Source: Candidatus Tectimicrobiota bacterium
GTDB taxonomy: Bacteria > JACPSX01
Assembly: GCA_016193065.1 (NCBI GenBank)
Contig: JACPSX010000219.1
Coordinates: 1-28,088, forward strand
Reading direction: 5' to 3'
DNA: 28,088 nt
Part shown: positions 1-28,088 of the stretch, one piece after another
How the letters are laid out: every line of letters starts with the position of its first letter
How positions within the stretch are numbered: the stretch's first letter is position 1
Position numbers and translations under genes: made by a program
The notes under the pieces: model-generated
The model's database searches: none
What the model saw: only the letters and a program-made list of their open reading frames with translations
What the model was told of the DNA's origin: nothing

Positions 1-933
1 ATTGGCCCCCGTGGCCTGGACATAGATTTCCTGCCCCTCGTAGCTCAGAATCCAGTTCACGTAGAGCTTGGCGGCAAAGGGGTGCGCCGCCTTCTTTAGA
101 ATCTGGATGTTCCCCAAACCCACGGGCAGAGGCTCAACGGCAAAGAAGTCAACAGGTCCCCCCTGCTTGGCGACCCCGTAGACGTTGTACTCCGAAAGCG
201 GTATGGCAATCTTGAACTCCCCCGCAGCCAGCAACACGACCGCTGCATCAGCCCCCTCGGTGCGGAACTGGGCCTTATTCCTGGCAAAGCCCGCCATGAG
301 CTTTGTGGTCCTCTCAGCACCCAGGCTGTTCCACAGGGGATTGAGCCAGACGCCGGCGGTAATACTGTTAAACGCTACCTGGCCGCTCCACTTGGGGTCC
401 AGAAGGTCCTCCCAGGTCTTGGGCAGGTCCTTCTTGGAGACGAGGTTCGTGTTGTAACCCAGGCTGTAATAGCGCTTACGAAAAGCGATGGACGTAGTGC
501 CGTATTTCAGATCACCGGAATAGGTCCGCCAGGCGGGCAGATCGGTCAATTCGGCCAGTGCCTGGGCATCTAAATAGTTCTTCAGGGCTCCGCCGATTCC
601 CGTGACAATGTCTGCGATGGGTGCTCCCTGGCGGGCGGTAAAAAGAAGCTTCTGGTAGCGCACCTCGGTGGAGGCTAATGTGTAATCGACCTTCACGAAC
701 GGGTATCTTTGGTTAAACGCCTTGAGAACCTCCGCGTGCTCCCGGACAGTATCCGTGGAGTACACGCTGACTTTCCCCTCTGCTCTAGCCTTCTCCAGCC
801 AATCCTTGGGAACCGCCAGCTCGGCGTCAACTCCCTCCGCTCCCGCCGCGGCGACTGTCCTCTCCGCCGATGTCAGGAGCAATAAAGGAGCAATGACCGC
901 CACCAGGATAGCTGCCATCTTGTTTGTCTTCAC
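1..933 (-). CDS. ABC transporter substrate-binding protein, FbpA-like (SBP-D2), C-terminus beyond window
   Basis: This is a periplasmic binding protein of an ABC importer. Reading down from a GTG at 933 gives 311 codons without a stop, and the frame leaves the window at base 1. The GTG follows GGAGG with suitable spacing, and the identical MKTNK start of the full-length paralog at 12194-13294 supports it. A hydrophobic signal peptide (VAVIAPLLLLTSAERTVAAA) is followed by a mature domain with EGKVSVYSTDT, RYPFVKVDY, LGYNTNLVSKKDLPKTWEDL and AHPFAAKLYVNWILS, the usual blocks of this iron(III)/spermidine-like family. By comparison with the 366-residue paralog about 55 residues lie outside. It lies 99 bp downstream of a two-domain permease and probably serves it. 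The position of the FbpA tyrosine pair reads LSEYNVYGVAKQGG, with no adjacent tyrosines, so iron as ligand is doubtful. The family is clear but the substrate is not. Confidence 0.9.
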   Translation of the reverse strand, partial: MKTNKMAAILVAVIAPLLLLTSAERTVAAAGAEGVDAELAVPKDWLEKARAEGKVSVYSTDTVREHAEVLKAFNQRYPFVKVDYTLASTEVRYQKLLFTARQGAPIADIVTGIGGALKNYLDAQALAELTDLPAWRTYSGDLKYGTTSIAFRKRYYSLGYNTNLVSKKDLPKTWEDLLDPKWSGQVAFNSITAGVWLNPLWNSLGAERTTKLMAGFARNKAQFRTEGADAAVVLLAAGEFKIAIPLSEYNVYGVAKQGGPVDFFAVEPLPVGLGNIQILKKAAHPFAAKLYVNWILSYEGQEIYVQATGAN

Positions 934-1032
934 CGTGCTCCCTCCAATCCCTTTTTCTCCTCGCGGGCCAGGAGCGACGAGAGCCTCGCGTCTCTCTCTC
1001 CAACCAGTGCCACCTGTCTCAGAGAACTGCCT

Positions 1033-2772
1033 TCAGCGTCGCCCTCCGACTTCCCGGAATCCCAGGCGACGCATCCCCATTGCCACCATGAAAAGGAACA
1101 GGATCGTAAGGACGCCAATACCGGAGACCGCCCCCATCTGACCGTCGTCCCACATCATCCAGATAAACACGGAGAGCACCTGGTTCTCGGCCCCTTCGTA
1201 AAGCATCAACGGCAGACCCGTCAGACGCACCGAAAGAAACATGGACCAGATCCCCAGGCCAACGAACGCGGGGATCAGGAGGGGGAAATGGATGCGTCGA
1301 AATGTCTCCAGCAGGGTCGCCCCGCTCAAGTACGCCGCCTCTTCCAGCTCCCGGTGAATTTGCAGCAGCGAGGCGGTCATCGCCCGTGTCCCGTAGGCCA
1401 TAAAGCTCATCATGAAGCCCAGGGAGATCAGCCAGATCGTACCGTAGATGGGAACGTAGGGCTTCAGCATCAGAAAGATCCAGATTAGGGCCAAGGCCAT
1501 GACGATGCCGGGAATCGAGCGGGGCAGAAAGGCCAGCATGTCCATGAGCCTTCTCCCCCAAAACCGCGTGCGCACCAGGACCCAGGAGATCATGAAGGAG
1601 AGAAGGATCGTGCCGACGGCCGTGACGGCAACCATGAGAACCGTGTTTTTCAGCACCTTCCAGGTGGCCCCGTAAATGGCGATGGTGCGGTAATTGTCCA
1701 GGGAGACGAGGGAGAGGCTTTTCGCCGTCGGCAAGGTCGGAAAGGGGATCAGAGAGGTCCACAAGAGCACCAGCAAGGGCAAGACCAGGGTCAGGAGAAG
1801 GTAGAGCACAACGGCCCCAAAAGCCACATATTTCCAGCGCCCCAGGTCCAGCCGCTTGGGCTTATAGTCCCGGCCGCTCACCACGGCGAACTTCTCGGCC
1901 CGGCGGATCGCCTTGGAGTAGAGAACAACTCCGACGGCCGCCAGGAGCACGTAGGCGACGGAGAGGGCATTGGCCTGCCCGTAGTCGGGGGTCTCCAGAC
2001 CCTGGGTTACGGCGTAGATCTTCGTGCTGAACACGTAGATCCGGGCCGGCAGGCCCAGGATCCCCGGAATCTCGAAGGTCTCCAACACCGTGATTGTCTC
2101 GTAGATGAGAACCGCCACGATCCCCGAAGAGAGGACGCGCAGCGTGATCCGCCGCAGGCGGGAAAAGGGCCCCGCTCCGGAGACGGCGGCCGCTTCCTCC
2201 AGGGCCGGATCCATGTTCCGGAACAGGGGGACCATGAGCAGGAAGGAGGTCGGCACCACCCGCAGGGATTCCAGGATGATCATCCCCGGCAGGGTATAGG
2301 TGTTAAACGGCGCCGTGCCGAGACCGAAGAGACTCATCAGCCAGCGATTGATGTATCCCATGCGCGGGCTAAACAGCATGACCCAGGCAATGGCGTGCAA
2401 GACCCCGGGAATGGCCAGGGTCAGGGGGATGGCGGCAAAGGCGATCCCCCGACACGGGAGGTTGGTGCGCTCCACAAGCCAGGCCATCACTAGAGCCAAA
2501 CTCACCCCCAGAAGCACGCTCCCCGCCGTCAGAATCAGGGTGTTTCCCAAGATGACCATTGTGGATTTCCGCAGGTAGGCCCGGGCATAATTTTGCAGAC
2601 CGGGGTTTTTAAACTCCCCGATGGCCGTGGAGTTGCTGAAGCTGCCCAGGATCAGGGTCAACAGGGGAACCAACGTAAAGGCAAGCAGAAACAGCAGGAG
2701 AAGCGTGGCCCCAGGATGGCGGATCCTCACACCGCGGAAACGACTCATACCCAAGGTACCGGCTAGCTCCAT
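1033..2772 (-). CDS. ABC transporter permease, two fused permease domains (iron/thiamine type)
   Basis: This inner-membrane permease forms the translocation pore of an ABC importer. It has 579 residues when started at the ATG at 2772, which has AGGAG six bases upstream. A TTG at 2793 is in frame but has no such site. Two complete permease modules are fused, as in FbpB and ThiP. Each has about six membrane segments and one cytoplasmic EAA loop that contacts the ATPase: EEAAAVSGAG near residues 192-215 and EEAAYLSGATLL near 477-501. A polar linker (KYKPKRLDLGRW-like, near 300-315) joins the halves. A binding-protein gene follows 99 bp downstream. The nearest ATPase gene (3338-4435) is separated by about 565 bp holding a UbiD remnant and is coupled to a different permease, so this one may share that ATPase. 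A weak promoter candidate lies at 2884-2912. Confidence 0.93.
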   Translation of the reverse strand: MELAGTLGMSRFRGVRIRHPGATLLLLFLLAFTLVPLLTLILGSFSNSTAIGEFKNPGLQNYARAYLRKSTMVILGNTLILTAGSVLLGVSLALVMAWLVERTNLPCRGIAFAAIPLTLAIPGVLHAIAWVMLFSPRMGYINRWLMSLFGLGTAPFNTYTLPGMIILESLRVVPTSFLLMVPLFRNMDPALEEAAAVSGAGPFSRLRRITLRVLSSGIVAVLIYETITVLETFEIPGILGLPARIYVFSTKIYAVTQGLETPDYGQANALSVAYVLLAAVGVVLYSKAIRRAEKFAVVSGRDYKPKRLDLGRWKYVAFGAVVLYLLLTLVLPLLVLLWTSLIPFPTLPTAKSLSLVSLDNYRTIAIYGATWKVLKNTVLMVAVTAVGTILLSFMISWVLVRTRFWGRRLMDMLAFLPRSIPGIVMALALIWIFLMLKPYVPIYGTIWLISLGFMMSFMAYGTRAMTASLLQIHRELEEAAYLSGATLLETFRRIHFPLLIPAFVGLGIWSMFLSVRLTGLPLMLYEGAENQVLSVFIWMMWDDGQMGAVSGIGVLTILFLFMVAMGMRRLGFREVGGRR

Positions 2773-3046
2773 GCCCTTCTCCTGGAGAAACAATCCGGAT
2801 GCTGCAGAGTCACAGGCTCAATCGCCAGACAATTTCATTCGGAACTCTGTTGACCTTAAAGCTTGAGGTTTGGAGTTAGCGCTTCTATATCACACCGGCT
2901 CCAGGGAAACAACCTTCTTTTCCCAGCCGGCCGGGTGAACTCTTAAATGCCCGATCTTCCGACTCAGGGAACCCGTCAAAAATCCTGCCCAATCCCTGAA
3001 ACCGCACAAAGTGCCCGGAGAAACGGCGGGATCCGCCCTGCGATGC
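2773..3046. other. Non-coding stretch between permease and UbiD remnant
   Basis: With the remnant at 3047-3233 and the bases up to 3337, this forms the largest gap without an intact gene (about 565 bp). I see no protein-family similarity in 2773-3046 in any frame. It contains the weak promoter candidate at 2884-2912 reading toward the permease. Bases 3234-3337, next to the ATPase stop, likewise show nothing I recognise, apart from a few codons that may extend the UbiD remnant upstream in yet another frame. Confidence 0.5.
2884..2912 (-). promoter_or_regulatory. Weak sigma70-like promoter candidate before the permease at 1033-2772
   Basis: On the minus strand TTGTTT (2912-2907) and TATAGA (2889-2884) are separated by 17 bases. 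That is 3 of 6 and 4 of 6 matches to the sigma70 consensus, reading toward the permease start about 110 bases away. The long gap and the unrelated remnant upstream make an independent promoter sensible here, but the match is weak. Confidence 0.25.
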
Positions 3047-3337: not shown

Positions 3338-4435
3338 TCACGCTTTCCTTGACAAAGAAGACAGTTCTCTATTGTAGAACACCCTGATCCTGTCCTTGGA
3401 AATCTGGAAATATGCCTTCCCGGGTGCAATGGGACTTCCCATCGCTTTCTTCAATATCCTCTTACTGGTTCGGGTCTGGACTTGATACAGGCTGTAGTCA
3501 CCCAAAAAAGTAGTACTAACTATCTCTCCCTCGAACTCATTGGCATTGCCTGAGGGGGAAGCGCTTAGTTGAATGTCCTCGGGCCTGATTGCGATGACCA
3601 CTTGAGAACCGACGCTGCTCGCCGAATCCGCATGTAGCGTTCCGATCTCGGTTTTTATGACTCCTGCCTCGGTAATTCTGCCCTCTAACCAGTTCACGGA
3701 GCCGAAGAACTCAGCCACAGTGACATTGACAGGCTGGTGATAGAGTTCCTGTGGATGCCCCACTTGCAGAATGACTCCATGATCCATCATGGCGGTTCGA
3801 TCAGCCAAGGCCATGGCTTCTACCTGGTCGTGTGTCACATAGAGAACGGTGACGCCGATCTTTTTCACCAGCTCTCGTAACTCAGAACGGACATCCTCCC
3901 GTAAACGGGCATCCAGGTTGCTGAGGGGTTCGTCCATGAGGAGGGCCTGGGGTTTAATCGCCAGGGCTCGAGCGAGGGCGACTCTTTGTTGCTGGCCCCC
4001 GCTCAGCAGTGGGGCAGGTCTTTTCTCCAGTCCTTCCAGTTGGACCAATTGGAGCGCTTCCCTGACCCTATCCTGAACCACTTGCTTGGAAAGTTTTCTT
4101 TTGGCTTGCGTCAAAGGTAATGCCACGTTTTCGAAAACCGTCAAGTGAGGCCAAATGGCGTAGGATTGAAACACCATGCCCAACTCTCTCTCCTGGGGCG
4201 GCACGAAAATCCGCTCGCAGTCAGAGAATACCACCTTTCCTGCCAAGGAGATTTGGCCGGTATCGGGCTTTTCCAATCCTGCCAAGCAGCGCAGGAGGGT
4301 CGTTTTGCCTGATCCACTCCGCCCCAACAGGACGAATATCTCTCCTCTCTCCACCTGAAGATCAATGCCCTGGAGCGCCTGAACCGTTCCCTGCTTCGTG
4401 TGGAATTTCATGGTGACGTTTCGAATGGCAATCAT
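3338..4435 (-). CDS. ABC transporter ATP-binding protein (FbpC/PotA type)
   Basis: This is the ATPase that powers the importer, 365 residues from the ATG at 4435. That ATG shares the sequence ATGA with the TGA stop of the upstream permease, a four-base overlap that indicates translational coupling. The same frame is open further upstream to 4567, but that part lies inside the permease gene. All ATPase motifs are present: Walker A GRSGSGKTT (38-46), Q-loop FQSYAIWPH (Q90), signature LSGGQQQR (144-151), Walker B ALLMDEP (164-170) and switch histidine in YVTHD (202). A TOBE-like regulatory domain occupies the last ~120 residues and contains VVIAIRPEDIQLS. It works with the permease at 4432-6168 and binding protein E at 6258-7346. 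Motif positions match those of the second ATPase at 15097-16203 exactly, so the two are related copies. Confidence 0.95.
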   Translation of the reverse strand: MIAIRNVTMKFHTKQGTVQALQGIDLQVERGEIFVLLGRSGSGKTTLLRCLAGLEKPDTGQISLAGKVVFSDCERIFVPPQERELGMVFQSYAIWPHLTVFENVALPLTQAKRKLSKQVVQDRVREALQLVQLEGLEKRPAPLLSGGQQQRVALARALAIKPQALLMDEPLSNLDARLREDVRSELRELVKKIGVTVLYVTHDQVEAMALADRTAMMDHGVILQVGHPQELYHQPVNVTVAEFFGSVNWLEGRITEAGVIKTEIGTLHADSASSVGSQVVIAIRPEDIQLSASPSGNANEFEGEIVSTTFLGDYSLYQVQTRTSKRILKKAMGSPIAPGKAYFQISKDRIRVFYNRELSSLSRKA

Positions 4436-6168
4436 AGGGTCCGCTCCATGGCTGTAGCGCGTCTTCCCACATACCAATAGAGGAAGACGAGGGGGACCAT
4501 GACGGCAACGACCAGCAAGGCCGCGGCGGCAGCTTTTGGATAAAGTCCCGACAGCCAGATTCCCCACATGGCGGCCGGGAGCGTGATATTACGCGTGGTA
4601 GCCAGAATTGACGCCACGGTAAGCTCCCGGTAAGTCAATAGGGCAACCCATAACCAAGTGTTCAGCAATGCCGGACCGAGCAGGGGCAACAAAATCTTCC
4701 GCAGAATCCGTAATAGCGGGATGCCGCTGACCGCTGCCGCTTCCTCGAGTTCCTTGTGAATTTGAATCAGAGCGCTGTTTAGATTCCGCGTTGCAAAGCT
4801 GAGCCACACCAAGGTATAGACCGCCATGAGGAGATAGATTGTACCGTAAATGGGAAGGAACCCACTGAGAAGAAAGATGGACACATAGGCTGCGCTTACA
4901 GCGAAAATAATATGGGGAACGGCATGGGGAAGGAAAGAGAAGACGTCAAAGAAAAACCTGCTCCGAAATCCTGAACGAACCACCACCCAGGAAAGTCCTA
5001 GACTGAATAGCAGCGTTAACGTGGGCACTGAAACGGCCAAGATGAACGTATTTTGCGCCCCGATCAACAGTTGGTGGATCGGGAGCGCCCTGAAGTTATT
5101 CAGGGAGACATGACCCAGGGCGCTCAGAGAGGGTACCTGCGGATAGGGAAGTAGGGCATTCCAAACGAGCATGGATAGTGGCAACAGCTGGCCCAGAAGG
5201 AAATAACCTCCGAGAAAGGCCCAAGCCCAAGGCTTCCAACGGCCCAACTCCACCTGCCTCGGCCGGTACGACTGGCCGGTGACCACGGCATAGCGGTGGC
5301 TCGACTTCAGCGCGCGGTAGTACCAACAAAGGAAGAGAAGGGAGATGCAAATCATCAACACGGCGGAGGCGCCGGCCAGGTCGTGCCTCGGCAAACCGTC
5401 CAGCGGCTGGACCTGAATGTAAAGAAAGGTGCTGAAGGTGAACACGCGATTCGACAGGCCGATCACAGCCGGGATATCGAAGGCGGCGACACCGATCATA
5501 AAGATATAAATTGCCGCCGCTAATACTCCGGGATAGGCGAGTGGCAGGGTCACTTTGTGGAGGGTCTGGAAAAACCTAAGGCCATGGACCTCAGCGGCCT
5601 CCTCGAAGACAGGGTTCATCGCTCGAAACGTCGGCGACACCATGATGAAGGCCACGTTTGCCAGGCCAAGACCCTGGATGATCCCCATTCCCGGCGCTGT
5701 GGCCACGTTGATACGGGCCCACTCCATCCCCGGGATCCCGGTAATGAGCGTATTGATGATACCGATCCGGGGGTTAAGCAGGAAAACCCAGCCCATGCCG
5801 GTGAGAAAGCTGGGAATCAGCAGACCCAAAACCATAAGGGTCTGGGGAATTTCTTTGGGGCGCAGGTCAGTTCTCTCCACAAGCCAGGCAGCCGGGATAC
5901 CAAATAATAAGGCCACCGCCACCGTTATCAGAGAAAAGACGGCGGTGTTCAGCAACGCCTTGTACGTGAAGGGGTCCAAGTACAGCTCCCGATAGGCATC
6001 GAGACTGTAACCGGCGGCAGCGCCCGCCAACTGCCGGAAACTTATCCAGACAATTACACTGACCAGGACAGTCAACGCAGCAACGGGAATCAGTGAAATG
6101 CCGACCAAAACCGTACGGCGATCAAGCAGCGGGCCGATCACCAGTCTACGAAGAACCGCTCTCCGCAT
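4432..6168 (-). CDS. ABC transporter permease, two fused permease domains
   Basis: Inner-membrane pore component of 578 residues with two tandem permease modules. The first has the loop FEEAAEVHGLRFFQT and the second LEEAAAVSGIPLLRI, each followed by the LP-rich segment that docks on the ATPase. The linker SYRPRQVELGRW separates the halves. Many hydrophobic segments are evident, beginning with VLVGISLIPVAALTVLVSVI. The ATG at 6168 has only a weak GGGAA before it, so translation may depend on coupling to the upstream binding-protein gene, which stops 89 bp away. The stop overlaps the start of the ATPase by four bases. Binding protein E, this permease and the ATPase form the only complete importer operon in the window. 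Confidence 0.94.
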   Translation of the reverse strand: MRRAVLRRLVIGPLLDRRTVLVGISLIPVAALTVLVSVIVWISFRQLAGAAAGYSLDAYRELYLDPFTYKALLNTAVFSLITVAVALLFGIPAAWLVERTDLRPKEIPQTLMVLGLLIPSFLTGMGWVFLLNPRIGIINTLITGIPGMEWARINVATAPGMGIIQGLGLANVAFIMVSPTFRAMNPVFEEAAEVHGLRFFQTLHKVTLPLAYPGVLAAAIYIFMIGVAAFDIPAVIGLSNRVFTFSTFLYIQVQPLDGLPRHDLAGASAVLMICISLLFLCWYYRALKSSHRYAVVTGQSYRPRQVELGRWKPWAWAFLGGYFLLGQLLPLSMLVWNALLPYPQVPSLSALGHVSLNNFRALPIHQLLIGAQNTFILAVSVPTLTLLFSLGLSWVVVRSGFRSRFFFDVFSFLPHAVPHIIFAVSAAYVSIFLLSGFLPIYGTIYLLMAVYTLVWLSFATRNLNSALIQIHKELEEAAAVSGIPLLRILRKILLPLLGPALLNTWLWVALLTYRELTVASILATTRNITLPAAMWGIWLSGLYPKAAAAALLVVAVMVPLVFLYWYVGRRATAMERTL

Positions 6169-6257
6169 CGAAATTCCCAGATCCGCTTTCCGGCAGACCT
6201 TCCCCTCTTCGCATCCCCGAGTATTTACTCTGACCTCCTGTTCCTGAGGTCGCTCCC

Positions 6258-7346
6258 CTAACGACCGGCCAGAACTTTCGCAAACTCGGTAGCGGCCTTG
6301 CTGAGGATGGCTCCTTCTTCCCCCCTCCAGGAAGCGGCCGTGAATCTCAATGTTTTCATACTCTTCGCCTCCGCTTCCTTGTATTGCTTATGGGCTGGAG
6401 TCCCTTCCACCGAGGCCGAGGACCAACCCACCACCCGGGAAAGGATGTCTTGGCCTTCCTTGCTCATGAGAAAGCCGACCAAGAGAGTGGCCAGGTTCGG
6501 ATGTGCCGAGTGCGCGGGAACTACAAAATAGAAGGAGTCAATCAACGAGGGATCCTCCTCCCATACCGTGCCCACAGGTCCGCCGGTCTGTCGAGCATAG
6601 GCATCTCCGCCATAGTTCCCGCAGTTCTTAACCAGCATCAGAAACTCTCCGCTGGCGATCCGGGACTCTTCCCCGCACCGGATCAAACCACCGATCTGGC
6701 GGCTCAGGGCCTGGACAAATTCCAAGGCTTTGTCGTAACCCCACGCCCGGTTGGAGGCCAAGAAATAGAGTCCCGATGCATAGGGAGTGGAAGCGATCTT
6801 CCCCTTCCATTTCGGGTTCAGGACATCTTGAAGCCGGCGCGGCGCTTCCGCCGTCTTAATCTCGCGGGTGTTGTAAGTAATCCCGTGGAATACGTCCACA
6901 AACCGGATTAACTGTCCTTCGGCCTCTACGGTATCCCCCGGAACGTGGGGAAAAACCTCCCGCCAGGGATAAGGTCTCGTCACTCCTTTCCCCAAAACCA
7001 TGTTGACGGGGCGCGCGTTGGCCACAAGAATATCCGTGTCCGACTTCACACCCGCCTGGCGCGTCTCTATGACACGGCCTGTCATAACGGGCATTGCAGG
7101 CCCGGCGGCGTAACGGATCCTTATATTGAGACCGTATTTCTTGTTGAGCGCGTCCTGGATGATCCTGACACCCTCTGCCTCTCCCCAAGTTCCGCCCCCT
7201 GCCACCAGATTGAGCTCGCCCTCAGCCTGCGCCGCTTTGATCAGCTCATTAAGCCTCTGCGCAGGCCCCTGCTGAGCATATCCGATTGGAACCGACACGA
7301 TCATCACGGCAAACACGCAGCCCAACCACATCATCCTCTTGCGCAT
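6258..7346 (-). CDS. ABC transporter substrate-binding protein (SBP-E)
   Basis: Periplasmic binding protein of 362 residues, first gene of the complete importer operon (binding protein, permease, ATPase). A clear Sec signal peptide (WLGCVFAVMIVSVPIGYA) is probably cleaved before QQGPAQRLN. The mature part has AAQAEGELNLVAGGGTWG, ITYNTREIK, LNPKWKGKIASTPYAS and AHPNLATLLVGFLMSKEGQ, the usual blocks of FbpA-like proteins. It is more distant from the other binding proteins of the window than they are from each other. Cysteines near 216 and 232 (LIRCGEE, VKNCGNYGG) could form a disulphide in the periplasm; this is a guess. The iron-site region reads KNCGNYGGDAYARQTGG, without the adjacent tyrosine pair of FbpA. 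The ligand is unknown. Confidence 0.93.
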   Translation of the reverse strand: MRKRMMWLGCVFAVMIVSVPIGYAQQGPAQRLNELIKAAQAEGELNLVAGGGTWGEAEGVRIIQDALNKKYGLNIRIRYAAGPAMPVMTGRVIETRQAGVKSDTDILVANARPVNMVLGKGVTRPYPWREVFPHVPGDTVEAEGQLIRFVDVFHGITYNTREIKTAEAPRRLQDVLNPKWKGKIASTPYASGLYFLASNRAWGYDKALEFVQALSRQIGGLIRCGEESRIASGEFLMLVKNCGNYGGDAYARQTGGPVGTVWEEDPSLIDSFYFVVPAHSAHPNLATLLVGFLMSKEGQDILSRVVGWSSASVEGTPAHKQYKEAEAKSMKTLRFTAASWRGEEGAILSKAATEFAKVLAGR

Positions 7347-7392: not shown

Positions 7393-8388
7393 TCAGACTT
7401 CTCCGCGCAGCAAACCACTCTCCTTGTAGTACGATTCGGCTCCCGGGTGGAGGGGAACCGGCATAGTTTTCCATACCTCTTCGGGTCGAATTGGATAATG
7501 AAGGGGGCTCTCCATGACCGGCATGTGCCGGTATTTGACCTCGAAATCATCCCGGTCTTCGATGAGAACCTGAGCCATCAGACGGGCCACCCGGTCCGGC
7601 ATGTCGCCGCGGACCAAGACGATCCATTGGCTCCAATCCACGGTGGTCACCGCGCGATCAAGCCCGAAAAATTCCCCGGCCTCAATGGTCTCCGCTTGAT
7701 ATCCATAGTCTTTGTTTAAACTCTGCAATTGCGGCTCGTCGATGGAAAGAAAGCGCATCGGCCGCCGATCCGTAAATCGGTGCCAGGTCATGATAGCCTC
7801 ATAAAAGATGGCATCGGCCTCCCCGGAGACCAGGAGTTTGGGGGCTTTGGGGGGGCGTTCAAATTCGATCCATTTCCCTCCCCACTTCGGGATGTCGCCC
7901 CATTCGATGCCGTAGGCATTCAGGATGCGCTCGGCGACAAATCCGATGTGATTAATCCCGTCGTTCAGTCCCGTCACGATCCTGAGGGGGGGCTTCTTCT
8001 CGCGCAGGTCGTGAAACGAGCGGATCCCATAGCGCTGAGCCACATCCTCGGCGATGGCCAGAACCATGCGGTCCCTGTGAGGCAGGGCCGCGATTGCCCG
8101 CAGATCAGGATAGGCGCGTTCGAACATTCCCCTGCCTTCCAAGGCCTGCGCCGCCGTGACGATCGGTGTCGTGACCGCCATATCCACAAGCCCCTCCGCG
8201 ACCGAAAGGACATTATCCTTGTATCCTCGGCCCGTGTGAATTACAAAGGTTGAAGTCTTGGCCGTCCTCCATCGCATGCCCGTAGCGATCCAACCACAGA
8301 GGCTCGTCAAGTTCGTTATGCCCCAATCCCCCATAAGGCGCAGATGAACTTCTAAATCGCTTTTTCCCCATTCGGCTTCCACATCCAT
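7393..8388 (-). CDS. TAXI-family (NMT1/TRAP-type) solute-binding protein without a visible signal peptide
   Basis: The protein has the type II binding fold of TAXI-family receptors. Visible blocks are STFVIHTGRGYKDNVLSVAE, EGLVDMAVTTP, PDLRAIAALPHRDRMVLAIA, IRSFHDLREKKPPLRIVTG, IPKWGGKWIEFE and LLVSGEADAIFYEAIM. I chose the ATG at 8388 (331 residues) because AGAGGA lies nine bases upstream. An ATG at 8397 and a GTG at 8412 are also in frame. From none of these starts does a hydrophobic signal segment appear, although TAXI receptors are normally exported. No TRAP permease (DctQM) gene is in the window. The gene lies 46 bp upstream of binding protein E and 61 bp downstream of an LLM gene, so it is probably co-transcribed. 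It may act as a cytoplasmic binding or sensing protein, or as a THI5/NMT1-like enzyme; the role is open. Confidence 0.85.
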   Translation of the reverse strand: MDVEAEWGKSDLEVHLRLMGDWGITNLTSLCGWIATGMRWRTAKTSTFVIHTGRGYKDNVLSVAEGLVDMAVTTPIVTAAQALEGRGMFERAYPDLRAIAALPHRDRMVLAIAEDVAQRYGIRSFHDLREKKPPLRIVTGLNDGINHIGFVAERILNAYGIEWGDIPKWGGKWIEFERPPKAPKLLVSGEADAIFYEAIMTWHRFTDRRPMRFLSIDEPQLQSLNKDYGYQAETIEAGEFFGLDRAVTTVDWSQWIVLVRGDMPDRVARLMAQVLIEDRDDFEVKYRHMPVMESPLHYPIRPEEVWKTMPVPLHPGAESYYKESGLLRGEV

Positions 8389-8449
8389 GATGTCCATTCC
8401 TCTGTTGAGCACGTATAATGATCAATTCAGTCCGTTGAATCTCCACGTT

Positions 8450-11021: not shown

Positions 11022-11052
11022 ATTTCCCAATTCAAAAGGAAAACCCTCCACC

Positions 11053-19140: not shown

Positions 19141-20187
19141 TCAAGGCTGGACCGGGCTCCCGGGATCCCTCAGCTTCAAGAGCGGGCGCACTTCATGGTG
19201 AAAGCGCTCGAGCTGGCCAATGGGGTCCAGCGAGGCGATCATCAGAATGATCCGTTTGAGGGCCGGAACTGTGTGTTCGTAGCTCAACCATTCGTTGACC
19301 TTCTCGGCGATCATCTCCGGAGGACCGAAACAGCCTCGCTCAAGCCAGGTGTCCAGATCGGGATTCCCCTGAACCTGGTAGAACCCTCCGGCGACCCTCG
19401 ATCCATAAAAATCCCGAGCTTCCTGGCGGGCGGCCGCAACGGACTCCCCCACGGTCAGATAACCCGACTCGAGCGTGAGGTCGAACTCCGCATCCCGGAT
19501 CTCCCGGCCGATCTCCTGGGCAGCCCGCTTGATACGCTCCATGCCTTCCAGGAGCTCCTCCGCAATCATGCCCGAGACGCTGATCCAGCCGTCCCCGAAG
19601 CGGGCGATCCTGCGAATGGCTCCCAGGCTCCACTTGGATTTCTCGGCGGCGCCCGGCGCTCCCCGGGTGATCCCGTGGTAGCCGCCTCCCACGAGGATCT
19701 TGATCCGGGGTCTCTGCACGGGTTTTGGTTCCAGGACAACCTCACGGAGCTTGTAATACTTGCCCTCGAAAGTCACTTCCGGCTCTGTCCACAGTTTCTC
19801 CAGGATCTCCAGAGCTTCCACGGTTCGCGCGGACCGTTCCTGGTACTCCACTCCGAGATTACTGAACTCCTTGGGGATGAAACCAATTCCGACCCCCAAG
19901 ATGAGACGGCCGTCGGAGAGATGATCCAGCGTCACGAGGCGCCGGGCCAGGTCCACAGGCTGGTAAAGGGGCACCTGCAAGACCGCAGTACCCAAGCGGA
20001 TTCTCTTGGTGCGGGCCGCCACGGCCGTAAGAATCTCCAGCGAATCAAAGGCATAAATGTCCCGTGAAACGATGTGGGGAAACCAGAAGGACTCGTAACC
20101 CAATTCCTCGAGTCTCTCGGCAAATCGAGGTCTGACGGAGGCGGGTATACCGGAGCCGATGGGGAGACGAAAGCCGATGCGAATCAT
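19141..20187 (-). CDS. LLM-class flavin-dependent oxidoreductase, subgroup with RGAPGA insertion
   Basis: Flavin-dependent luciferase-like oxidoreductase of 348 residues. The ATG at 20187 (MIRIGFRLPIGSG) has AAGGAG six bases upstream and aligns with the start of the paralog at 23530. Marks are YQPVDLARRLVTLDHLSDGR and LILGVGIGFIPKEF. A stretch of about 17 residues (YHGITRGAPGAAEKSKW) is inserted after the GG of ILVGGG, relative to the LLMs at 8450, 11053 and 16315. The same insertion occurs at 22508 and 27551. It stands between binding protein A1 (58 bp away) and the permease (12 bp), clearly in one operon. Confidence 0.92.
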   Translation of the reverse strand: MIRIGFRLPIGSGIPASVRPRFAERLEELGYESFWFPHIVSRDIYAFDSLEILTAVAARTKRIRLGTAVLQVPLYQPVDLARRLVTLDHLSDGRLILGVGIGFIPKEFSNLGVEYQERSARTVEALEILEKLWTEPEVTFEGKYYKLREVVLEPKPVQRPRIKILVGGGYHGITRGAPGAAEKSKWSLGAIRRIARFGDGWISVSGMIAEELLEGMERIKRAAQEIGREIRDAEFDLTLESGYLTVGESVAAARQEARDFYGSRVAGGFYQVQGNPDLDTWLERGCFGPPEMIAEKVNEWLSYEHTVPALKRIILMIASLDPIGQLERFHHEVRPLLKLRDPGSPVQP

Positions 20188-20245: not shown

Positions 20246-21316
20246 TCACTGCGCCCGCAAGATCCTCGTCATTTCTTTCGCCAGATCCTCGGAGGCCTTC
20301 GTGCCCATGAACTCCAGGGCTCCCGGCCACTGCGACCAGTTGAAAATCTTGAGACCCGATTTTTGGGCTTCCTGGCTCAGTTTATGCTCGTAGGAATCCG
20401 GGTAAAAGGCGTTCCCGTTGCCGATCTCGTTCTCCCAGATCCGGTGAGCCTCCGGCCCGGACATGTAGGCGATCAGGAGCCTGGCCGCGTTCGGGTGTCT
20501 CGCCCCTTTGCGGACTCCCAGTTGATGAATCGTCACGTAGGCGAAATCCAGACTCTTGAAGCGGGCCGGAATCCCTTTCTTCACGGCCTGAGAGTAGAAT
20601 GCTGAAGTAATCAGGATCATGGGATACTCTCCCACCGTAAACCGCCGATACTCGTTGGGGTAAGTGTCCACCACGGCGCCATTGTTCATCATGGCTTTCA
20701 AGTCGGTCAGGATGCGGGCATTGTCATAGATGCGCGAGTAGGCGCTGTAGAGGTCGGTGTAGGGGAAAATGACGAACTTCCCCTTCCACTTGGGCTTCCC
20801 CAGATCGCTCAAGGAGACTGGAGCGTCCTGAGGGGAAATCACTTGAGGGTTATAGAGCAGTCCCACGTGTCCCGTGTAAATTGCCACACTTTCCCCGCCA
20901 AATTGCACGACCTGCGGCGGCGTTCCTTCCGGTAGCAGGGGCCCCCAATCCACCTTTTCCAGGACTCCCGCCCGGACGGCGTCAAACATGTTGCTGTCGG
21001 AAGAGACGTGGAGATCGTAGGAAGGGGTCACTTTGGCCCGGAACTCGGAAATCGCCTGGGCGGTCAACTGGGGATAACTACGGGCCGGAGTATAGTTAAT
21101 CTTCAAACTGACCCCGTACTTCGCAGCAATTGCCTTCTCAACCTTACTGACCCCTTCGGGAGTAAGGCTGGAGGGGAGAACGACATCCACCGCCCCCTCT
21201 TTTTTTGCCCCTTCAATCACCCGTGTCAGCGCATCACTGGCAGCCCGTGCCCCCGGCGCAGACACCAGAGCCCCAAGAGACATCAACAGCACCGCCAGCA
21301 CAATCCCTCTTTTCAT
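20246..21316 (-). CDS. ABC transporter substrate-binding protein (SBP-A1)
   Basis: Periplasmic binding protein of 356 residues. The ATG at 21316 (MKRGIVLAVLL) has GGAGG eight bases upstream; a GTG five codons earlier overlaps that site. The signal peptide ends ...APGARA, with cleavage before ASDALTRV. Features are EGAKKEGAVDVVLPSSLTPE, GVSLKINYTPARSYPQLTAQ, HVGLLYNPQVISPQ, GKPKWKGKFVIFPYTDLY and HPNAARLLIAYMSGPEAHRI. It is a close paralog (roughly 80% identical by eye) of the protein at 26372-27451. In place of the FbpA tyrosine pair it has LITSAFYSQAVKKG. It lies between binding protein C and an LLM gene. Confidence 0.94.
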   Translation of the reverse strand: MKRGIVLAVLLMSLGALVSAPGARAASDALTRVIEGAKKEGAVDVVLPSSLTPEGVSKVEKAIAAKYGVSLKINYTPARSYPQLTAQAISEFRAKVTPSYDLHVSSDSNMFDAVRAGVLEKVDWGPLLPEGTPPQVVQFGGESVAIYTGHVGLLYNPQVISPQDAPVSLSDLGKPKWKGKFVIFPYTDLYSAYSRIYDNARILTDLKAMMNNGAVVDTYPNEYRRFTVGEYPMILITSAFYSQAVKKGIPARFKSLDFAYVTIHQLGVRKGARHPNAARLLIAYMSGPEAHRIWENEIGNGNAFYPDSYEHKLSQEAQKSGLKIFNWSQWPGALEFMGTKASEDLAKEMTRILRAQ

Positions 21317-21358
21317 CCTTGCATCCTCCACAGCGTGGAAAGAACCTGAACCGCGAGG

Positions 21359-22507: not shown

Positions 22508-23530
22508 TCACATGTCCAGCAAGGGCTGAACTTCATCGTGAAACCGCTCCAGTTGCTGCACCGGATTCAAGGAAGCAAACATGATCACGATGCGATTCAA
22601 GGCGGGAACGGTTCTTTTGAACGAGAGCCAGTTGTTGACCACCTCGGCCACTTTCTGCGCAGGACCGTAGCAGCCGCTCCGCCTCAAGTCCTCAAAGGAG
22701 GGGTTCGCCTGCACCTGATAGAATCCCTTGCGCAGTCTGGTGTTATAGAAGCGCTCCGCCTCGTGCACGGCTTTCTCCCCGTCCCCGTCGATATTGAACT
22801 GTCCGAAACTGCTCAGCGTCAGGTCAAAATTCTCGTCCTCCAGGGTGCGCCCCTCTTTTCCGGCCACCTCCTTGAGAAGTTCCATCCCCTCCCGGCATAC
22901 GTTCAGATCAGGCCGTCCTCCGGGGATCCAGCCCGTGGCAAATCGGGCGGTCCGCCGGATGCCCGGATGGTTCCACCCTCCTTTGCGCGCGGCTCCCGGA
23001 GCGCCCCGCTGGATGTTGCTGTGGAGACCGCCCATGAGGATCCCGGGATAGGGTTTCTGGACGGGCTTCGGATCCACGATGATCTCTTTCAGGCGATAAT
23101 ACTTGCCCTCGTACGTGACCTCGTCTTCGGTCCACAGCCGGGTCAAGATGTCCAAAGCCTCCTCCATCCGGGCTCCCCTCTCCTGAAACGGAATCCCCAT
23201 CCCGGCGAACTCAGCGGGGATAAATCCGATCCCGACTCCGAGGATAAACCGGCCGCCGGAGAGGTGATCCAGGGTCACCACGCGCCGGGCCAGATCCACC
23301 GGCTGGTAGAGGGGAACCTGCAGCACGTCCGTTCCCAGCTTGATCCTGCTCGTCCTGCCCGCCACCGCAGCCAGCGTGTCCAGCGCGTCAAAACCATCCA
23401 CGTCCCTGGCGATGAAGTGCGGCAACCAGAAAGATTCGTAGCCGAATTTCTCCACTTGCTCGGCAAATTGCAGGCGCACGGAGACCGGAATCGTAGACCC
23501 GATAGGCATCGCAAATCCCAGTTGCACCAT
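22508..23530 (-). CDS. LLM-class flavin-dependent oxidoreductase, subgroup with RGAPGA insertion
   Basis: Flavin-dependent luciferase-like oxidoreductase of 340 residues with GGAGG seven bases before the ATG at 23530. Marks are YQPVDLARRVVTLDHLSGGR followed by FILGVGIGFIPAEF, and the inserted HSNIQRGAPGAARKGGW after ILMGGL. It ends MFASLNPVQQLERFHDEVQP. About three quarters of positions agree with the partial LLM at 27551 over the shared C-terminal 175 residues. It is 21 bp downstream of binding protein B1 and about 60 bp upstream of binding protein C. The enzyme and receptors are thus very likely made together. Confidence 0.93.
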   Translation of the reverse strand: MVQLGFAMPIGSTIPVSVRLQFAEQVEKFGYESFWLPHFIARDVDGFDALDTLAAVAGRTSRIKLGTDVLQVPLYQPVDLARRVVTLDHLSGGRFILGVGIGFIPAEFAGMGIPFQERGARMEEALDILTRLWTEDEVTYEGKYYRLKEIIVDPKPVQKPYPGILMGGLHSNIQRGAPGAARKGGWNHPGIRRTARFATGWIPGGRPDLNVCREGMELLKEVAGKEGRTLEDENFDLTLSSFGQFNIDGDGEKAVHEAERFYNTRLRKGFYQVQANPSFEDLRRSGCYGPAQKVAEVVNNWLSFKRTVPALNRIVIMFASLNPVQQLERFHDEVQPLLDM

Positions 23531-23551
23531 CGCAAGCCCTCCTCTTATGAC

Positions 23552-24664
23552 TTATTTGCGGGTTAACAAGCGGCCGATTTCTCCCTCCCAGGCTTCCGCT
23601 TCCGGAGTGGACATGTAGCGCACGCGCTCCGGGGTCCACAACCAGGGGCGGACTCCCTCCCACTCCGGCCCCAGTTCAAATAGGGATTGACCTCTATAGT
23701 GCAGATTCGGGGCACTGGCGACCTCTTGCCAGATCTTCAAAGCTTCGGGTCCGGCCAGAAAGGCAGCCAGCAGCTTCGCCGCATTGGGATGGCGAGCACC
23801 GGTTCGAACCGCGACATTGTGCTGGTTCATAAGAGCAACATCCATCGGCCTAAAGCCCGCGGACAATCCCTTGGCCTTCAACTGATGCGCAAAGGTTTCG
23901 CTGATCAGGGCCACTATGGGATATTCCCCCAGGGTGAAACGGTTGATGGCAGTGGGCCATTCGGCCACCACGGCACCGTTCTTCATGATCCCCTCCACCA
24001 CCGAAAGACTCGTTTGGCGCCCGAGGGGAATCACCAGTGGCATCCATACCAGGGGATAGGGAGGCACGAGAACCTTCCCACGCCACTTCGGATTCGTAAG
24101 ATCCCTGAGACTTGCAGGCGCCTCCTGGGGAGACACCACCTTGGGGTTATACAGGAGACCGAGGTACGTTGTGTTGACGACCAGGCCGGACCCGCCAAAA
24201 ACCACGACTTCCCGTGGCGTCTTTGAGACGAGATAGGGTCCCCAGTCCACGCGCTCGACGGCCCCTGCCTCGGCCAGAGCGAAGAGGCGGAAGTCCTCTA
24301 AAGTGATGAGATCGTGGCTCGGTGGGGTCCCGGCCTTGTGCTCCGTCAAGGCTTGCGCCTGGATTCTCGGATAGCTTCGGGTCGGAGTGTAATTGATTTT
24401 CAGGTCAACGCCGTACTTTTTGCGGATTCCCTCCTGAATCGCCGCTACCCCTTGTGGAGTGAGTGAGGATTGCAGCGCCACGTCCACAACTCCTTCCCGC
24501 TTGGCTCCTTCCACGATGCGGGCCAACGGGTCTGCGGCCGGCGCTCCCCCCGGGGAGGCCGCCGCCGCCCCCTGGGGATACAACCAGGCCCCAGCCCACA
24601 AGATTCCCAAAAACCCCAGCATCCGCGCACAAACCCGCCATCCGGTTCTGAATCCGCAGTGCAT
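23552..24664 (-). CDS. ABC transporter substrate-binding protein (SBP-B1)
   Basis: Periplasmic binding protein of 370 residues. The ATG at 24664 has GGGAG seven bases upstream and is followed by a signal sequence (VCARMLGFLGILWAGAWL then GAAAASPGG); the frame is open to 24775 but that part lies in the promoter region. Blocks are EGAKREGVVDVALQSSLTPQ, YGVDLKINYTPTRSYPRIQA, GAVERVDWGPYL, YLGLLYNPKVVSPQEAPASL and ARHPNAAKLLAAFLAGPEAL. The pair B1/B2 shares most of its sequence, including the ending EGEIGRLLTRK / EQEIGRLLIRK. The tyrosine-pair region reads LISETFAHQLKAKG. This is the first gene behind the promoter at 24794-24822. Confidence 0.93.
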   Translation of the reverse strand: MHCGFRTGWRVCARMLGFLGILWAGAWLYPQGAAAASPGGAPAADPLARIVEGAKREGVVDVALQSSLTPQGVAAIQEGIRKKYGVDLKINYTPTRSYPRIQAQALTEHKAGTPPSHDLITLEDFRLFALAEAGAVERVDWGPYLVSKTPREVVVFGGSGLVVNTTYLGLLYNPKVVSPQEAPASLRDLTNPKWRGKVLVPPYPLVWMPLVIPLGRQTSLSVVEGIMKNGAVVAEWPTAINRFTLGEYPIVALISETFAHQLKAKGLSAGFRPMDVALMNQHNVAVRTGARHPNAAKLLAAFLAGPEALKIWQEVASAPNLHYRGQSLFELGPEWEGVRPWLWTPERVRYMSTPEAEAWEGEIGRLLTRK

Positions 24665-24793
24665 AATTTCACTCCCGTTGTCCCGCTGGTGAAAACAATA
24701 TCTCTCCCTTAGCCACATTGCCGCCCGGGCTAGAGGCAAGCAGAGGATACGTGCCCCGCTCTCACTGGAAAACATGAAGTATTGATATTCGAT

Positions 24794-24822: not shown

Positions 24823-24858
24823 GGGATATTCGAGGCAATGGGCAGAGCGTTCAGAGTC

Positions 24859-24958: not shown

Positions 24959-26095
24959 CTACTTGCGGATCAACAAGCGACCGATTTCTTGCTCCCAGGC
25001 TTGCGCTTCCGGGGTGGACATGAAGCGCAGGCGCTCCGGAGTCCAGAACCAGGGCCGTACTCCATTCCACTCCGGCCCCAGGTCAAAGAGGGATTGGCCT
25101 CGATAATAAAAGTTGGGGTTGCTGCCAATCTCCTGCCAGATCTTCAAGGCATCGGGGCCAGCCAGGAAAGCAGCCAGCAGCCTTGCCGCATTGGGATGAC
25201 GCGCATTTCTCCTCACCGCGACGATGCGCAGGCCCAGGTTGGCGGTATCCAACGGCCTGAACCCCACGGCCATGCCCCGCGCCTTGACCTGACCGGCATA
25301 GATTTCGCTGATCAGAGCCACCAGGGGATACTCTCCCAAGGTAAAGCGGGTAATCGCAGTGGGCCATTCGCTCACCACGGCCCCGTTCTTCATAATCGCC
25401 TCCACCCCCGAGAGGCTCGCCTGCCGACCCATAGGAATCGCCAGGGTCATCCACGTCGAGGTGTAAGGGGGAATCAGGATCTTTCCTCGCCACTTGGGAT
25501 TGGCCAGATCTTTCAAGCTTGCCGGAGCTTCCTCGGGACGGATCACCTTGGAGTTGTACAGGAGACCCACAAACGCCGTGTTCACCACAAGACCCGAGCC
25601 CTCATAGACCACGCTCTCCGGAGGAGTCCCGGGAGGAAGCAAGGGTCCCCAGTCCACGCGCTCGACGGCCCCAGCTTCGGCCAAATCAAATATATGAGTT
25701 TCCGCACCGGTGATAAGATCGAAGCTTGGAGGGACCCCAGCCTTGTGCTCCGTGAGAGCTTGCGCCTGGATTCTCGGAAAACTCCTGGTGGGGGAATTAT
25801 TGATTTTCAGATCGACACCGTATTTTTTCCGGACGGCTTCTTGAACCGCCGCTACTCCCCGGGGGGTGAGTGAGGATTGCAGCGTTGCATCCACAACTCC
25901 TTCTCGTTTGGCCCCCTCAATGACACGGGTGAGTGAGTCTGCAGATGAGGTCCCTCCCGGCGAAGCGGCCGCAACTCTGTCTGTCTTCTGTGCCGCCACC
26001 GCCGCCGGATGCAGCAAAACGCCGGCGCACAAAATCCATACGGCCACGAGGAACAGCGTACATGCCAGGCACCCGGCACTGATTCGACGGACCAT
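24959..26095 (-). CDS. ABC transporter substrate-binding protein (SBP-B2)
   Basis: Periplasmic binding protein of 378 residues from ATG 26095, which follows GGAGGAGG at five bases; an in-frame start at 26131 has no such site. The signal peptide is long (CLACTLFLVAVWILCAGVLL), cleaved probably after AVAA before QKTDRV. Blocks are EGAKREGVVDATLQSSLTPR, YGVDLKINNSPTRSFPRIQA, GAVERVDWGPLLPPGTPPES, FVGLLYNSKVIRPEEAPASL and ARHPNAARLLAAFLAGPDAL. It is the paralog of SBP-B1 (23552-24664). The tyrosine-pair region reads LISEIYAGQVKARG. It lies downstream of the LLM remnant and SBP-A2. Confidence 0.93.
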   Translation of the reverse strand: MVRRISAGCLACTLFLVAVWILCAGVLLHPAAVAAQKTDRVAAASPGGTSSADSLTRVIEGAKREGVVDATLQSSLTPRGVAAVQEAVRKKYGVDLKINNSPTRSFPRIQAQALTEHKAGVPPSFDLITGAETHIFDLAEAGAVERVDWGPLLPPGTPPESVVYEGSGLVVNTAFVGLLYNSKVIRPEEAPASLKDLANPKWRGKILIPPYTSTWMTLAIPMGRQASLSGVEAIMKNGAVVSEWPTAITRFTLGEYPLVALISEIYAGQVKARGMAVGFRPLDTANLGLRIVAVRRNARHPNAARLLAAFLAGPDALKIWQEIGSNPNFYYRGQSLFDLGPEWNGVRPWFWTPERLRFMSTPEAQAWEQEIGRLLIRK

Positions 26096-26173
26096 GATTT
26101 CCTCCTCCCTTTTTTCCTTACTCGATCCCACGGCCTTCCGAGGAGATCCGAGATGGGGAAAGCAGTGGACATC

Positions 26174-26287
26174 CTACATGCAAGGGAGAACCGTCTTCTC
26201 CAGCCGATCCACCTGGGTTTTGATGTCGAAAGTGTGGAAGTAGAGAACGATTCTTTCGGCACCGTAACCCCAGAAGCAATGCAGTTT
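26174..26287 (-). pseudogene. C-terminal remnant of an LLM-class oxidoreductase gene
   Basis: Thirty-seven codons ending in TAG (26174) read KLHCFWGYGAERIVLYFHTF then DIKTQVDRLEKTVLPCM. This matches the end of the LLM proteins of the window, for example ELWALGPERIVFYIHSVD and ATQLKRIEKEILPKI at 8450-9439. The resemblance stops abruptly upstream, at about 26290, and no start codon or flavin-binding part is present before the stop of SBP-A2 at 26372. The remnant belongs to the subgroup of 8450, 11053 and 16315, not to the LLM gene just upstream. The remaining bases of 26096-26371 hold nothing else I recognise except a perfect palindrome AGGATTCGAATCCT. Confidence 0.7.
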
Positions 26288-26371
26288 CCATTCTCGCTCA
26301 CTCTTGCTCAGGCGACAGTGCCAGAAGGATTCGAATCCTCTCCTCCCGCTCTCTCAGGGAGAGGAGGCACT

Positions 26372-27451
26372 TCACTGTCCCTGCAAGATTCTGGACACTT
26401 CTTTTCTCAGGTCGTCCGCCGCCTTGGTACCCTGGAATTCGAAGGCGCCCGGCCAATGGGACCAGCTGAACGTCTTGAGGCCTGCTTTCTGGGCCTCCTG
26501 AGCCAATTTATGGTCGTAGGAATCCGAATAGAAAGAGTTCCCGTTGCCAATCTCGTTCTCCCAGATCCGGTGAGCTTCCGGCCCGGACATGTAGGCGATC
26601 AGCAGCTTGGCCGCATTGGGATGCCTGGCTCCTTTGCGGACTCCGAGTTGATGAATCGTCGCGTAGGCAAAATCCAGACTCTTGAAGCGGACCGGAATCC
26701 CCTTTTTCACAGCCTGCTCATAGAACGCCGAAGTGATCAGGATCAGGGGATACTCTCCCACTGTAAACCGGCGGAACGCGGAGGGGTAAGTATCCACCAC
26801 GGCTCCATTGTTCATCAGAGCCTTCAAGTCGGACAGAATTCGGGCCTTGTCGTAGACGAGCGAGTAGGCGGTGTAGAGGTCCGTGTAAGGAAAAATGACG
26901 AACTTGCCCTTCCATTTCGGCTTTCCCAGATCGCTCAGTGAATTTGGCACGTCCTGAGGAGAGACCACCCGGGGGTTATAGAGCAGTCCCACATGCCCCG
27001 TGTAAATGGCCACGCTTTGCCCACTAAACTGCACGACCTCCGCAGGTGTTCCTTCCGGCAGCAGGGAGGCCCAATCAACTTTCTCCAGGATTCCCTCCCG
27101 GACGGCACCATATATGGTGCTGTCCGAGGAGACATGGATATCGTAGGAAGGAGTCACCCTGGCCCGGAACTCGGAAATCGCCTGAGCGGTCAACTGGGGG
27201 TAATTGCTGGTCGGAGCATAATTAATTTTCAAATTGACCCCGTACCTTGCAGCGATCCCCTTTTCCACCTTATTGGCTCCTTCGGGAGTAAGGCTCGCGG
27301 GGAGAACAGCATCCACCACCCCCTCTTTTTTTGCCCCCTCAAGCACTCTGGTCAGCGCCTCACTGGCAGCCCAAGACCCAGTCGTAAGCACCAGAACCCA
27401 GAGGCTCGTCACGAGCCCGCCGGCCACAACACTCCACTGCTCTCTCCTCAT
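26372..27451 (-). CDS. ABC transporter substrate-binding protein (SBP-A2)
   Basis: Periplasmic binding protein of 359 residues with GGAGG eight bases before the ATG at 27451. The signal peptide VVAGGLVTSLWVLVLTTGSW is probably cleaved before ASEALTRV. It aligns with SBP-A1 along its whole mature length: EGAKKEGVVDAVLPASLTPE, GVNLKINYAPTSNYPQLTAQ, HVGLLYNPRVVSPQ, GKPKWKGKFVIFPYTDLY, HPNAAKLLIAYMSGPEAHRI. The signal peptides, in contrast, are quite different. The tyrosine-pair region is LITSAFYEQAVKKG. It lies 100 bp downstream of an LLM gene related to the one upstream of SBP-C and SBP-A1, which supports duplication of an LLM/SBP-A unit. Confidence 0.94.
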   Translation of the reverse strand: MRREQWSVVAGGLVTSLWVLVLTTGSWAASEALTRVLEGAKKEGVVDAVLPASLTPEGANKVEKGIAARYGVNLKINYAPTSNYPQLTAQAISEFRARVTPSYDIHVSSDSTIYGAVREGILEKVDWASLLPEGTPAEVVQFSGQSVAIYTGHVGLLYNPRVVSPQDVPNSLSDLGKPKWKGKFVIFPYTDLYTAYSLVYDKARILSDLKALMNNGAVVDTYPSAFRRFTVGEYPLILITSAFYEQAVKKGIPVRFKSLDFAYATIHQLGVRKGARHPNAAKLLIAYMSGPEAHRIWENEIGNGNSFYSDSYDHKLAQEAQKAGLKTFSWSHWPGAFEFQGTKAADDLRKEVSRILQGQ

Positions 27452-27550
27452 CTGAGCATCCTCCCTAACATGAAAAGAATTTTTGATCTCATGAGTTCCT
27501 CCCCCTTCTACGGGCCGCTGCTTAGGAAGGAACTTTGCCCTGCAATAGCT

Positions 27551-28088
27551 TCACAAGCCCAGCAAAGGCCGAACTTCATTGTGAAACCGCTCCAGTTGCT
27601 GCACGGGGTCCAGGGAAGCAAACATGATGATGATTCGCTTTAGCGCCGGCACCACCTTCTTGAACCCGATCCAGCGATTGATAACCTCCGCTACCTCCTC
27701 CGCAGGGCCGTAACAGCCGCTCGCCTTCTGGGATTCGAAAGATGGATTCCCCTGGAGCTGATAGAAGCCCTTGCGGACCCTCGTGTTGTAGAAGCGCTGG
27801 GCTTCGCTGAGCGCCTTGTTGCGGTCGCCATCAATGTTGAACTGGCCGTAGCTGGTCTGCGTCAGATCAAACTCCTCATCTTTCAGGGAACGCCCCTCTT
27901 TGCGGGCTGCTTCCTTAAGAAGTTCCATCCCTTCCCGGCAGACCTCCAGGTCAGGCCTTCCTCCGGGTATCCAACCCGTGGCGAACCGGACCGTCCGCCG
28001 GATCCCCCGCTGGTTCCATCCTCCCTTGCGGTCGCTTCCCGGAGCGCCCTGCTGGATGTTCGTATAGAGACCCCCCATCAGAATCCCG
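27551..28088 (-). CDS. LLM-class flavin-dependent oxidoreductase, N-terminus beyond window
   Basis: C-terminal part, about 179 residues, of a luciferase-like flavin oxidoreductase. The frame is open through the right edge of the window, so the ATG at 28078 is internal: the preceding codons (GIL) and the following MGGLYTNIQQGAPGSDRKGG align with the middle of the protein at 22508-23530. It keeps the RGAPGA-type insertion (here QGAPGS), then RFATGWIPGGRPDLEVCREG, FNIDGDRNKALSEAQRFYNT and the end MFASLDPVQQLERFHNEVRP. About 165 residues with the flavin-binding GRFILGVGIG region are outside. It is followed by SBP-A2. Confidence 0.9.
   Translation of the reverse strand, partial: GILMGGLYTNIQQGAPGSDRKGGWNQRGIRRTVRFATGWIPGGRPDLEVCREGMELLKEAARKEGRSLKDEEFDLTQTSYGQFNIDGDRNKALSEAQRFYNTRVRKGFYQLQGNPSFESQKASGCYGPAEEVAEVINRWIGFKKVVPALKRIIIMFASLDPVQQLERFHNEVRPLLGL

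Follow-up and report, generated by a model that had tools for sequence, protein, structure and literature searches.

ATP-binding cassette (ABC) importers encoded together with luciferase-like (LLM) enzymes are known from the SsuABCD and EmoA/Epp systems. In the sulfonate systems SsuABC-SsuD(E) and MsuD, the LLM-fold oxidoreductases are flavin mononucleotide (FMN) monooxygenases that work with a flavin reductase. Degradation of ethylenediaminetetraacetate and nitrilotriacetate (EmoA with the Epp importer; NtaA) likewise handles organic anions with an uptake receptor and an FMN-using LLM enzyme. F420-dependent luciferase-like hydride transferases (FGD, Adf and Mer; family model TIGR03619) have the same fold and, to our knowledge, have not been found in an ABC-importer cassette. 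Here we describe a 28,088-nucleotide contig of Candidatus Tectimicrobiota bacterium (JACPSX010000219.1, assembly GCA_016193065.1; the window), on which many receptor and LLM genes are arrayed with a few ABC importers. The window takes in the entire contig, C162, from a draft genome of 2.9 Mb in 294 contigs that is 86% complete.

Like the sulfonate and EmoA/NtaA systems, this locus encodes an importer with LLM-fold oxidoreductases; unlike in the sulfonate systems, the receptors are of the FbpA type, the permeases are fused, the cofactor is probably F420, and duplicated receptors and enzymes are numerous. The EmoA/Epp and NtaA systems differ from it in receptor family, in having no array of paralogues and probably in cofactor. 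Its receptor fold, permeases and TOBE-type ATPases recall FbpABC, PhnSTUV and MctA-type importers, but the iron tyrosine pair of FbpABC is absent from the receptors aligned at that site and scores fall far below the 2-aminoethylphosphonate equivalog cut-offs of PhnSTUV. With FGD, Adf and Mer the window LLMs share their fold and best family model, in a host that has F420 biosynthesis and NpdG. We read the window, with a probability of roughly 0.55, as a duplicated cluster, particular to its lineage, for catabolism or salvage, in which ABC uptake of organic anions feeds F420-dependent luciferase-like enzymes. No paper describing such a receptor/LLM cluster was found in the open-licence papers searched.

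One LLM clade clusters with receptors

In a tree of 59 LLM sequences (quick search, Shimodaira-Hasegawa-like approximate likelihood ratio support, SH-aLRT), all six window LLMs fall into a single clade with 99% support. The clade also holds two LLMs of contig C48 and three of contig C37, both from the same genome, and one from locus L017 on contig C125 of a distant genome, Deltaproteobacteria RIFCSPLOWO2_12_FULL_60_19 (G041); the receptor-LLM arrangement is found again on all three contigs. A same-strand FbpA-like receptor lies within 3 kb at 4/4 loci of this clade versus 0/18 other LLM loci (Fisher p 1.4e-4), counting loci rather than genes and with some of the 18 contigs short. One C37 member of the clade is without a receptor neighbour. 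Viewed from the receptors, three of the eight FbpA-like loci of the host genome hold LLMs (p about 0.001-0.006 for random placement).

Among 60 receptor loci of genomes G041-G075, a permease is present at 49 and an ATPase at 37, but a same-strand LLM lies within 3 kb at only two (any strand, eight). The conserved unit in other genomes is therefore the receptor-permease-ATPase importer, which was joined by an LLM partner in one lineage of LLMs. LLM density around these loci is about twice background (14 observed, 7 expected, p 0.014, the background being first-look LLM counts). An earlier note on the window, made from its letters alone, had proposed cassettes of LLM and binding-protein genes, an idea it would have given up had the two families proved scattered relative to each other in related genomes. 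Such scatter is part of what we found, since same-strand LLMs are so much rarer than permeases at these loci; what stands is a non-random association confined to one LLM clade.

Receptor-like genes abound in genomes G041-G075, with as many as 233 candidates at first look, and this receptor group is mostly missing from the further relatives numbered G076 and above. On the G041 contig (L084, 11988-16492), genes for an M24 peptidase and hydantoinase B lie downstream of the SBP-permease-ATPase-LLM cassette (SBP, solute-binding protein), a possible hint at an amide or lactam substrate.

Gene content of the window

Every recognisable gene lies on the minus strand and intergenic gaps are mostly below 160 bases, an arrangement that would be compatible with transcription as one operon or a few. 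The features, in order of transcription, are:

27551..28088, minus strand: LLMa3, truncated at the contig end so that the C-terminal half is left (domain search; duplicate analysis)
26372..27451, minus strand: SBPb2, FbpA-like binding protein; 78% amino-acid identity to SBPb1
26183..26353, minus strand: LLM 3'-end remnant; 83% DNA identity across a 101-base match with the end of C48's LLMb-like gene
24959..26131, minus strand: SBPc2, FbpA-like binding protein (domain search; duplicate analysis)
23552..24775, minus strand: SBPc1, FbpA-like binding protein (domain search; C48 block)
22508..23530, minus strand: LLMa2; block with SBPc1 repeated on C48
21359..22501, minus strand: SBPa3, FbpA-like binding protein; SBP_bac_8 2.5e-20
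20246..21331, minus strand: SBPb1, FbpA-like binding protein; predicted model closest to the metal-citrate receptor MctA
19141..20187, minus strand: LLMa1; TIGR03619 169.9 versus cut-off 166.9
17377..19128, minus strand: perm3, fused ABC permease; 46% identity to the permease in L017
16315..17349, minus strand: LLMb; TIGR03619 168.2 versus cut-off 166.9
15097..16203, minus strand: ATPase2, ABC ATPase with TOBE domain (domain search)
14847..14990, minus strand: weak candidate for what is left of an SBPa-type receptor's C-terminus; matches the SBPa C-terminus end to end at 6.7 bits
13322..14643, minus strand: UbiD decarboxylase pseudogene; frameshift and deletion of roughly 70 residues
12194..13294, minus strand: SBPa2, FbpA-like binding protein; nearest solved sequence MctA (7f6s)
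11053..12036, minus strand: LLMc2; Bac_luciferase 1.1e-50
9576..11051, minus strand: GlmL/MutL family protein, apparently orphan; TIGR01319 340 bits, above cut-off
8450..9433 (start maybe upstream, to 9613), minus strand: LLMc1, luciferase-like oxidoreductase; Bac_luciferase 2.8e-49; 91% amino-acid identity to LLMc2
7393..8412, minus strand: TAXI/NMT1_3-like protein; NMT1_3 3e-20; 42% identity to the C37 TAXI protein
6258..7346, minus strand: SBPd, FbpA-like binding protein; SBP_bac_6 1.6e-13; 35% identity to the C37 receptor
4432..6168, minus strand: perm2, fused ABC permease; best NCBIfam model PhnU2, far below cut-off; 49% identity to the C37 permease
3338..4432, minus strand: ATPase1, ABC ATPase with TOBE domain; Pfam ABC_tran and TOBE_2
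1033..2793, minus strand: perm1, fused two-domain ABC permease; BPD_transp_1 in two stretches
1..933, minus strand: SBPa1, FbpA-like solute-binding protein, cut by the contig end; Pfam SBP_bac_8 3e-15; 77% amino-acid identity to SBPa2

The totals are eight FbpA-like receptors and one weak remnant, one TAXI-like protein, six LLM genes and one remnant, three fused permeases, two ATPases, one broken UbiD gene and one GlmL gene. Pfam and NCBIfam scans of the open reading frames agree with the earlier note on the single strand, the seven LLM genes or remnants (six genes and a 3' end), the three permeases, the two ATPases and the one GlmL. Its count of nine FbpA-like genes or remnants comes down to eight reading frames with SBP_bac_6/8/1 domains and at best a short C-terminal remnant, and its two UbiD remnants are really halves of one gene (14643-13322). 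The TAXI-like protein narrowly misses the TIGR02122 cut-off (80.3 versus 84.35 bits) and is recognised by Pfam NMT1_3. GlmL passes the family-level model TIGR01319, and no GlmE partner for it was found in a search of the 86%-complete genome; its gene sits between two near-identical LLM genes, LLMc1 and LLMc2.

F420 as the probable cofactor

The window enzymes belong to the LLM superfamily by Pfam PF00296 (Bac_luciferase) and by their luciferase-type fold. For all five LLMs scanned, the best NCBIfam model was TIGR03619, an F420-dependent subfamily: LLMa1 and LLMb score above its cut-off, and the C37 LLM (164.7), LLMa2 (163.0) and LLMc1 (159.1) below. Genomic context points in the same direction. 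Contig C37 carries, on one strand, the order permease-ATPase-SBPd'-LLMa'-TAXI'-FrhB-like-CofD-CofC-CofE-NpdG-CofG-CofH, in which the permease is 49% identical to perm2, the ATPase 49% to ATPase1, the receptor 35% to SBPd, the LLM 50% to LLMa and the TAXI protein 42% to that of the window. The closest window matches of the C37 importer genes (perm2, ATPase1, SBPd and TAXI) adjoin one another at 3338-8412. CofG, CofH, CofE and NpdG, the last an NADPH-F420 reductase, score above their NCBIfam cut-offs, CofC and CofD are present in frameshifted form, and on this gene set the host encodes F420 biosynthesis. An F420 ligase was found in 31 of the 36 genomes checked.

The alternative that survives best, which we nonetheless consider unlikely, is that the LLMs are classical FMNH2-dependent monooxygenases such as SsuD, EmoA and SfnG, serving FMN-type scavenging of organosulfur or amino-carboxylate compounds. 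Pairing of an importer with an LLM is familiar from FMN enzymes, and the predicted structure of LLMa2 (predicted local distance difference test score, pLDDT, 87), which has EmoA among its fold matches, is slightly nearer to FMN luciferases (Z 33) than to F420 glucose-6-phosphate dehydrogenases (Z 30). This alternative must, however, accommodate an F420-dependent model ranking first for five of five LLMs and an F420 biosynthesis run with NpdG adjoining the paralogous C37 cluster; moreover, the window showed no flavin reductase gene. Both reduced flavin and F420 had been named at first reading. Judging from the family model and the C37 genes, F420 is the better supported of the two, and reduced flavin the less likely.

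Duplication and receptor-enzyme pairs

The array contains five duplicate pairs, with DNA identities of 81.5% (LLMc), 81% (SBPb), 79% (SBPa), 77% (LLMa) and 75% (SBPc). Their synonymous divergence (dS, Nei-Gojobori) lies between 0.66 (SBPb) and 1.45 (LLMc), which implies old copies that probably do not stem from a single event. Ratios of nonsynonymous to synonymous divergence (dN/dS) of 0.04-0.19, with LLMc1/LLMc2 at 0.04, indicate that the copies have been maintained by purifying selection. On C48, a contiguous 2.36-kb stretch is 73% identical in DNA to window positions 22508-24824 and spans LLMa, SBPc and their spacer; SBPc-LLMa was thus copied as a contiguous block. Further along, C48 carries an LLMb-like gene whose end resembles the window remnant at 26183-26353. 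Together, these matches indicate that a block LLM-SBPc-LLMa once existed and was copied.

Other parts have decayed. The UbiD gene was judged a pseudogene by comparison with the UbiD of contig C68; had it belonged to the cluster, it would fit carboxylic acids, and it is now broken. On C68 (L076, 1-10652), UbiD has a permease, an ATPase and an FbpA-like receptor as neighbours, with two Pup-ligase family genes (a proteasome-like tagging system) upstream.

In five pairs of the host genome, the gene directly upstream of the LLM is a receptor: SBPc1-LLMa2, the C48 pair, SBPb1-LLMa1, the C37 pair and SBPa2-LLMc2. Across these pairs receptor identity correlates with LLM identity (r 0.86, the observed pairing being the best of 120 permutations), with the upstream rule picked post hoc, the pairs few, and the upstream neighbour of LLMa3 beyond the contig end. 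Adding the G041 cassette weakens the correlation (9-12 of 720 permutations are as good), and LLM divergence is not mirrored by the receptors next to the LLMs on the downstream side. These comparisons are suggestive, not proof, that a receptor and the LLM immediately downstream of it diversify as pairs. The earlier note's proposal that receptor and enzyme pairs diversify together accordingly retains the upstream pairs and the copied SBPc-LLMa block, and loses the downstream neighbours.

Receptors and LLMs might instead have been gathered by independent duplication, with importers and LLMs acting on unrelated substrates. The rarity of same-strand LLMs at receptor loci of other genomes (2/60) and the untracked downstream receptors would fit this. 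Set against it are the 4/4 versus 0/18 association, which includes a distant genome, the duplication of SBPc-LLMa as a block and the upstream pairs that diverge in step, and we regard this explanation as improbable.

Receptors and likely ligands

The receptors belong to the FbpA/MctA-fold type-2 group by their SBP_bac_6/8 domains and periplasmic-binding fold. The predicted model of SBPb1 (pLDDT 88) best matches MctA, a citrate/metal-citrate receptor (Z 29.5, 15% identity), followed by HitA, AfuA (sugar phosphate) and polyamine receptors. Scores against the PhnSTUV 2-aminoethylphosphonate equivalogs are low (SBPd 27.7 versus 395.3; perm2 80.8 versus 593.25). The iron-holding Tyr-Tyr of HitA is not kept in SBPb, SBPc or SBPd, the types aligned with HitA at this site; where HitA reads NNYYWY, the aligned stretches are of the SEIYAG/SAFYSQ type and contain one Tyr or none. 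From these models and alignments, small organic anions rather than iron are most likely the receptor ligands. A role in iron or metal uptake (FbpABC), the neighbouring oxidoreductases being unrelated, is very improbable, and iron transport was rejected: although ferric-binding proteins are the top solved-structure sequence matches for SBPb and SBPd, the aligned receptors lack the consecutive tyrosine ligands, the fold family also includes citrate, sugar-phosphate, pyridoxal phosphate (PLP) and polyamine receptors, and eight divergent receptors would be unexpected for a single metal.

A model for the cluster and its implications

In the organic-anion, F420-dependent model, FbpA-fold periplasmic receptors would hand small organic anions to a few shared ABC importers, each a fused permease with a TOBE-type ATPase. 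With eight receptors to three permeases and two ATPases, it is likely that one translocator serves several receptors, and substrate range would be set at the receptor level. Cytoplasmic luciferase-like hydride transferases of one clade would then oxidise or reduce the imported compound using F420 or F420H2, with the host making its own F420 and NpdG coupling it to NADPH. The array may have expanded as receptor and LLM genes were duplicated in tandem and in blocks, with some copies (UbiD, one LLM and perhaps one receptor) decaying.

Several points weigh against this model. Two of the four window LLMs scanned fall 4-8 bits short of the F420 cut-off, and the fold match of LLMa2, about equal for FMN and F420 enzymes, does not separate them. 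The F420 link of the window LLMs rests on the neighbourhood of a paralogous cluster, and in that otherwise complete F420 run frameshifts break up both CofC and CofD as assembled (C37 = L070, 11750-13287); they may be indel errors of assembly or sequencing, or recent decay. No receptor or ABC permease lies near the F420 genes at 20 F420 loci of other genomes, so the importer-F420 linkage of C37 has so far been seen once. Fold matches at 15% identity cannot tell the receptor ligands. Lastly, three of the four LLM-clade loci belong to a single genome, whose lineage is distant (rpoB 61% to G041), and close relatives are hence lacking.

A broader proposal is that the window represents an undescribed mode of F420-dependent nutrient acquisition, in which a bank of receptors serves shared ABC importers and a dedicated clade of F420 hydride transferases, linked to F420 biosynthesis and with receptor-enzyme pairs diversifying. 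We advance it tentatively and with some doubt. According to a review (PMC8498797), the F420 pathway is encoded by Tectomicrobia and Rokubacteria; the review notes no experiments on the role of F420 in bacteria outside Actinobacteria and asks why newly identified producers make it. The locus described here offers specific gene sets that bear on this question, namely receptors beside LLMs. It is also a clear case in which receptor number outgrew translocator number through gene duplication. The cluster hints that one function of F420 in such bacteria may be the processing of imported organic acids; if true, an F420-dependent acquisition system would give the cofactor a tangible function in an uncultured lineage outside the Actinobacteria.

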